This document shows, one piece after another, positions 45,840-46,968 of a DNA stretch of 64,000 nt. Below the pieces are notes generated by a model, which was not told the origin of the DNA, ran no database searches, and saw nothing but the letters and a program-made list of their open reading frames with translations. How positions within the stretch are numbered: the first letter of the stretch is position 1; every line of letters begins with the position of its first letter. The position numbers and the translations under genes are program-made. The stretch comes from Prochlorococcus sp. AG-409-B05. Lineage in GTDB: Bacteria > Cyanobacteriota > Cyanobacteriia > PCC-6307 > Cyanobiaceae. The stretch covers positions 1 through 64,000 of the forward strand of contig QCJK01000006.1 of the NCBI GenBank assembly GCA_003216075.1, in the 5' to 3' direction.

Positions 45840-46968
45840 TTGCTAGAAATCACCGATTTCAAGAGGGATCTTTCTGTACTCACTGATCGCCTGGGCAATG
45901 CCCAGGACTGTCTTTGACTCCTCTGCTCTAGAAGCTAGGCAAAAGGATTTGGAACAATTAGCTGCACAGCCCAATTTTTGGAATGATCAGCACAATGCTC
46001 AGAAGCAAATGCGGCAGTTGGATGAGGTAAAGGAACAATTGAGTCAACTGAAGCGTTGGTGCAATGTGATTGAAGAGGCAAAACTCTCATTGGAGTTATT
46101 TGATCTTGAGCCAGATCAGAAGTTGCTTTCAGAAGCTAATGTTGGGTTGAAAAACCTAAGTTTTGAATTGGATCGCTGGGAGCTTGAACGGCTCTTGAGC
46201 GGTCCTTATGACAAAGAAGGTGCAGTACTGTCAATCAATGCTGGTGCTGGCGGAACAGATGCTCAGGATTGGGCACAGATGTTAATGAGAATGTATGTCC
46301 GTTGGGCTGAAGATCATGGTATGAAGGTTTCTGTTAATGAGTTATCTGAAGGGGAAGAAGCAGGGATTAAAAGTGCCACAATTGAGATTGAAGGTAGATA
46401 TGCCTATGGTTATTTGCAAAATGAAAAAGGAACCCATCGATTAGTTCGTATTTCACCATTTAATGCCAATGCAAAAAGACAAACTAGTTTTGCGGGTGTT
46501 GAGGTAATGCCAAAATTAGATGAAGAAATTGAATTGGAAATTCCAGAAAAGGACCTGGAAATTACTACTAGTAGGTCAGGAGGTGCTGGGGGGCAAAATG
46601 TTAATAAAGTTGAGACTGCTGTTCGTATTCTTCATACTCCTACTGGATTAGCAGTTAGATGCACACAAGAGCGATCACAGTTGCAAAATAAAGAGAAGGC
46701 TTTGACTTTATTGAAAGCCAAGTTAATGATAATTGCTCAAGAACAGAGAGCCGCCAAAATCGCAGATATCAGAGGAGATATTGTTGAAGCAGCATGGGGT
46801 AATCAAATTCGTAATTATGTTTTTCACCCTTATCAGATGGTTAAAGATTTAAGAACTTCTGAAGAAACAACTGATGTTCAGGGAGTAATGGATGGAAAAC
46901 TTGATAAATTTATTCAAGGACTCTTGAGGCAAGGACTAGACCCAATGGCAATGGATTCAGAGAGTTAA
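45840..46968 (+). CDS. prfB: Peptide chain release factor 2, with programmed +1 frameshift
   Basis: RF2 ends translation at UGA and UAA. The first 25 codons lie in one frame from TTG 45840 ([19 protein letters not shown]) and end CTT TGA (45912-45917). The rest is in the +1 frame from GAC 45916 to the stop at 46966, where the conserved [14 protein letters not shown] (GGQ) is found. The slip CTT to TTT, the in-frame UGA as codon 26 and an AGGA four bases upstream copy the classic autoregulatory prfB site. Total 375 aa. ATG 45816 is an alternative start. The apparent start at 45898 is a downstream internal ATG. Confidence 0.93.
45904..45918 (+). promoter_or_regulatory. prfB programmed +1 frameshift site
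   Basis: AGGA (45904-45907), CTT (45912-45914), TGA (45915-45917) and C form a Shine-Dalgarno-like stimulator, slippery codon and stop. Low RF2 favours a shift from CUU to UUU over termination, so RF2 controls its own synthesis. The stimulator is weaker than the E. coli AGGGGG and is shifted by about one base. Confidence 0.85.

Follow-up and report, generated by a model that had tools for sequence, protein, structure and literature searches.

The canonical prfB cassette, which brings about the +1 frameshift of release factor 2 (RF2), is described in the available text of PMC12421855 as having a purine-rich, Shine-Dalgarno (SD)-like element close to AGGGGG in sequence, set 3 nt ahead of the CUU shift codon. 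The same text reports the frameshift in 64% of 12,753 genomes and calls the SD hyper-conserved; neither 'cyano' nor 'hairpin' occurs in it. Stimulation by a hairpin has been studied with an artificial construct: according to the available portion of Huang, Cho and Chang 2018 (PMC6321510), a stable hairpin placed upstream, adjoining the E site, stimulates +1 shifting by the 70S ribosome in an E. coli lysate to about 60% of the SD-stimulated level at CUUUGA, an effect that is smaller when the hairpin is destabilised and is seen only without RF2. That hairpin is a designed 12-bp reporter stem, whereas the stem that we describe here is natural, has 7 bp and belongs to a native gene. For the 5' stem-loop of T4 gene 60, the available part of PMC5009743 gives the proposal that a stem at the mRNA exit pulls the mRNA and moves the ribosome forward; there, in a phage gene, the ribosome bypasses a coding gap over a long distance, whereas the locus studied here calls for a shift of one base.

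We analysed a stretch of 64,000 nucleotides (the window) from a genome of 1.8 Mb in 52 contigs, 91% complete, which, judged from its named relatives, is that of a picocyanobacterium. Comparisons were made across the window's class, which we take to be the oxygenic cyanobacteria, the other classes of the phylum being non-oxygenic (GTDB taxonomy). They used 143 class sites, namely the window, 80 named relatives (ranging from Prochlorococcus and Cyanobium to relatives of Nostoc, Oscillatoria and Leptolyngbya) and 62 of 63 other genomes of the same class, G133 having no match over the cut-off. These sites hold 49 distinct 31-mers, and the named and other genomes may share species. A further 11 sites, most of them chosen for low covariance-model scores, brought the set to 154.

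By these comparisons, prfB in the window is an RF2 gene with a +1 frameshift of the ordinary kind at codon 26. On the forward strand, a zero-frame leader of 25 codons (45840..45914) runs from a TTG start (45840-45842) to CTT. The shift site CTT TGA C (45912..45918) consists of the P-site CUU (45912-45914), the RF2-specific stop UGA (45915-45917), which is codon 26, and a weak 3' C (45918), and from the GAC codon to TAA (45916..46968) the +1 frame encodes the RF2 body. The locus therefore has the early in-frame RF2-specific stop, the body in the +1 frame and the CUU_U shift codon in a UGAC context that define the prfB frameshift generally, and it has UGA at codon 26, CUU_U, the 3' C and the +1 body in common with the cassette of E. 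coli. When a +1 step is made at TGAC, translation yields a product of 375 aa with PCRF and RF-1 domains that scores 478.1 bits against TIGR00020; RF2 can be identified from the body alone, because the 356-aa open reading frame from ATG 45898 already scores 473.3 bits. The heptamer CTTTGAC is no commoner in the window than chance would have it (10 observed, 10.8 expected), and the evidence for the shift site therefore lies in its position and conservation. It stands at the same junction in 80/80 named relatives kept, with L035 carrying a one-base deletion further upstream, and the TGA and the upstream frame were retained when picocyanobacterial prfB upstream regions were aligned, a check that the initial annotation of this locus had proposed. 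The frameshift, the position of UGA and the TTG 45840 leader, all put forward in that annotation, are borne out by these comparisons. Across the 154 class sites the shift site reads CTTTGAC in 151, CTTTGAG in 2 and CTTTGAA in 1, the variants being those of L208, L210 and L211, class genomes of family f42.

The choice of start codon is supported in the same way. The first leader codon is TTG in 23 and GTG in 13 of 38 picocyanobacterial genes, window included (36/38 together), and several of them have an in-frame stop just above it. Both observations argue against a start at the upstream ATG 45816. Only 45/154 class sites have an ATG corresponding to that at 45898, which overlaps the loop of the hairpin described below, so we do not regard it as a conserved start; the warning in the initial annotation that a gene model beginning there would truncate the protein was well placed.

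The element that should stimulate the shift departs from the canonical one. In place of a purine-rich stretch near AGGGGG, positions -9 to -4 relative to the shift codon read CAGGAC, in which a vestigial SD-like core, AGGA (45904..45907), forms a predicted duplex with the anti-SD of only -4.0 kcal/mol, compared with -8.7 kcal/mol computed for E. coli prfB. Across the 154 class sites, the duplex has a median of -4.0 kcal/mol and is at its strongest -6.2, with 0/154 at or below -7, and strong SD pairing is, on this comparison, lost in the window's class. A changed anti-SD is ruled out as the cause, since the 16S-end pattern in the genome itself carries CCTCCT and reads on to GGATCACCTCCT; a looser match to this pattern (L194) lacked an Rfam match and was dropped. 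The initial annotation had called AGGA a weaker Shine-Dalgarno stimulator than that of E. coli. The weak pairing stands, but the description was incomplete, because AGGA forms the 3' edge of a conserved hairpin at 45890-45906.

This hairpin is predicted to form between CCUGGGC (45890-45896) and GCCCAGG (45900-45906) around a loop AAU (45897-45899), with a stability of -13.4 kcal/mol. AGGA lies mostly within its 3' arm. A 5-nt spacer, ACTGT (45907..45911), which includes the E-site codon TGT, separates the base of the stem from the shift codon, so that, by prediction and conservation, the shift site has a stable hairpin immediately before it and close to the E site. In the alignment the stem has the consensus CCTGGGN-NNN-NCCCAGG and ends five bases upstream of CTT; counted from the shift codon, it stops at -6 and the SD stretch of E. 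coli at -4. No such hairpin precedes the strongly pairing AGGGGG of E. coli, whose computed fold is a loose one of -4.1 kcal/mol. Class sites have a median predicted stability of -11.7 kcal/mol, with weaker stems of -8.7 kcal/mol or weaker in 20/154. No Rfam family matched at gathering scores anywhere in the window, and structure downstream was rejected as a stimulator, the 101 nt from UGA folding no better than shuffles (z 0.56).

The prfB cassettes of other classes of the same phylum share the gene and the shift site with the window and differ in what lies before it. We read 48 of 82 such genomes, of which 43 with CTTTGA were scored and 5 lacked it. All 43 sites carry AAGGAG, AGGAGG, CGGAGG, AGGGGG or GGGAGG at -9 to -4, and their anti-SD duplexes have a median of -8.0 kcal/mol, with 43/43 at or below -7. 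Conversely, six or seven of the seven stem pairs can form in only 3/43, and a hairpin at or below -5 kcal/mol is present in 4/43 of these sites, against 153/154 in the window's class. At four sites of other classes (L177, L178, L108 and L173) a hairpin of -7 to -8.6 kcal/mol coexists with a strong SD; these are possible intermediates of a swap. Some cassettes of the other classes vary at the shift itself. L171-L173 (family f31) read AGGGGG TTG CTT TGA T, with T rather than C after the stop. L186 and L188 (family f24, another class) read AAGGAG TGY CCC TGA, which suggests slippage on proline CCC_U instead of CUU_U, and in L103, L181 and L193 (family f24) prfB lacks CTTTGA and is apparently in frame from ATG, so that the frameshift may have been lost.

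Taken together, we put at roughly three in four the probability that this is the autoregulatory +1 frameshift of RF2 with its stimulator changed, an intramolecular hairpin having supplanted the mRNA:16S rRNA duplex in both position and function. A shortage of RF2 would leave the ribosome waiting with P-site CUU and A-site UGA. Having been unwound during its own translation, the 7-bp hairpin would refold at the mRNA exit beside the E site, and its zipping would either pull the mRNA out backwards or loosen the E-site contact. The peptidyl-tRNA-Leu could then slip from CUU to UUU, and GAC would enter the A site; the mRNA would be drawn towards its 5' side by the zipping of a stem at the exit, and a +1 slip moves it in that same direction. 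The comparisons themselves establish the shift site, the predicted fold with its register, conservation and partial covariation, and the decay of strong SD pairing; we infer that the stem forms and stimulates in the cell, that it functionally replaces the mRNA:rRNA duplex and drives the forward slip through such a pulling step, and that RF2 is autoregulated in this organism. That the oxygenic cyanobacteria as a whole have exchanged the mRNA:rRNA stimulator of their RF2 frameshift for an mRNA hairpin acting as a mechanical motor seems to us likely. The hairpin that has been tested experimentally is one of 12 bp rather than 7, which counts against reading the stem as the stimulator.

A further point against that reading is the persistence of AGGA, which is retained in 146/154 class sites (altered in 8/154) and could still pair weakly. 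AGGA might itself be the stimulator, with the overlapping 3' arm of the stem hiding or exposing it, for example with temperature, and its anti-SD register matches, in our own reading, that of the AAGGAG of sister classes. Several observations make this unlikely. Ribosomes unwind stems while translating them. A stronger SD, CAGGAG, is one base away and yet is found in only 7/154 class sites. In three genomes, the Chamaesiphon L073 and two members of one genus (L212 and L213), AGGA is absent and anti-SD pairing is gone (duplex +1.2 kcal/mol), whereas the shift site and five or six stem pairs are kept. Residual pairing of AGGA may nevertheless add to stimulation by the hairpin in most species. 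One genome of the window's own family fits the hairpin poorly: in L214 (G428; a single contig of 1.8 Mb), AGGA has been lost and the stem is weak (5/7 pairs, -3.7 kcal/mol), and CTTTGAC is kept.

Among the 143 class sites, all seven pairs of the stem form in 121, six in 21 and five in 1; among the 154 the counts are 126, 26 and 2. The register of the predicted hairpin is thus constant, with at least six of seven pairs at the same 5-nt spacing in 152/154. A covariance model of the 42-nt cassette matched 376/388 class genomes and 158/160 genera, a prevalence that is not independent proof given that the model was built from class sequences. We inspected all 12 misses: in 11 the matches all fell well short of the prfB cut-off, and the twelfth has a truncated prfB beginning at profile position 74. 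The misses are thus explained by assemblies in which no start of prfB was found, and none is a prfB seen to be without a stem. In 36 of 37 class genomes that we rechecked, only one match per genome fell below 1e-13; the 37 were picked by eye among genomes with more than one model match, a choice that omitted at least G111 and G123. We also considered, and rejected, the idea that further genes carry the cassette, because the secondary matches in the rechecked genomes were weak (E 1e-4 or worse), apart from one in G171, a second, mirrored copy with the look of an assembly fold-back.

These data bear on the possibility that the hairpin is unrelated to the shift and serves, near the gene start, to pause or pace translation, or as an RNA-processing site. 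Stable structures near the start of a coding sequence can slow translation, and the hairpin lies 50 nt into this one. Against it stand the unchanged spacing to the shift codon at which six or seven pairs form in 152/154 class sites, the occurrence of the stem in the very group that lost its strong SD at that place, and the weakness of the other model matches in the rechecked genomes, the mirrored copy apart. We consider this reading improbable.

Synonymous codon choice was examined in the aligned genes by a codon-column test; L035 was left out of this test, of the tree and of alignment A1 because of its one-base deletion upstream. Leu18 is CTG in 80/80 genes, Gln22 is CAG in 80/80 and Arg17 is CGC in 77/79, whereas the highest share reached by any one codon in columns of the RF2 body is 0.65 for six-fold codons (44 columns) and 0.85 for two-fold codons (79 columns). 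Bodies from 18 AT-rich Prochlorococcus loci use CTG for 26/678 Leu, CGC for 4/269 Arg and CAG for 70/342 Gln. Selection appears, from these patterns, to act on the RNA. A synonymous-codon shuffle of each sequence gave a median P of 0.026, with P below 0.05 in 54/81 and at or above 0.05 in 27/81, and the strength of the case for synonymous constraint lies in conservation across lineages rather than in the per-sequence shuffle.

We also asked how the paired bases vary among 98 distinct rows of the alignment, in which three of the seven pairs are invariant. Pair 5 is G-C in 70 rows, G-U in 18, A-U in 9 and U-U in 1, and A-C never occurs; pair 7 is U-A, C-G or U-G in 82 rows and unpaired in 16. 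The covariation score was 0.182, compared with 0.116 when shuffled (0/500 shuffles as high), and fell to 0.068 or less when the arms were slid. All 500 shuffles were likewise exceeded by the proportion of cells that pair and by the cells with changes on both sides, whereas the number of pairs with a change on both sides and the number of pair types were not above the 500 shuffles. Of the cells, 96.9% are paired, and 58% or less once the partner is slid by one base. On a tree of the RF2 body, pair 5 has undergone at least 5 changes at its left base and 10 at its right. A tree-based independent-pairs test of covariation was not significant, with at most 3 usable pairs: for pairs 5 and 7 the direction was right and the independent pairs too few. 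Covariation of the predicted hairpin is therefore best described as partial. Conservation of the nascent peptide RLGKTQDYL or of chosen codons, with incidental pairing, would accommodate the conserved peptide and the invariant pairs, but it is very improbable given six-fold and two-fold codons fixed at 100% in AT-rich and GC-rich genomes alike, a pair 5 that becomes A-U at the cost of turning Gly19 into Ser (9/98 rows) with A never opposite C, and a background rate for the full 7/7 stem of only 757 in 380,956 windows.

Some class genomes carry a second RF2-like sequence. In Nostoc, a second frame lies just upstream of prfB in L060 (site 246), L064 (site 252) and L076 (site 224), with its own CTTTGAC and a degenerate hairpin. 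The GGQ catalytic motif is absent from the second bodies of L060 and L064, the two that were translated, which read WHGGNVN and RHWGNVN. This second frame may, on its sequence, be a catalytically dead RF2 paralogue. A neighbouring second match was also found in G068 and G125.

The prfB frameshift is known in most bacteria; what is new, as far as the literature searched extends, is a hairpin in place of a strong SD. That literature contained no report of this hairpin; Baranov 2002 (PMC1084053) may carry an earlier remark. Programs that search for frameshifts and require a strong SD could overlook or misjudge these prfB genes. The RF2 frameshift is a textbook case, and here a major lineage appears to have made a natural swap of its SD-like stimulator with the anti-SD intact. 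This opens to direct test the question of whether a forward slip can be driven by any duplex pulling on the mRNA at the exit, or whether there is something special about pairing with 16S rRNA. If our reading is true, the oxygenic cyanobacteria would offer a natural, class-wide, SD-independent +1 frameshift in bacteria.
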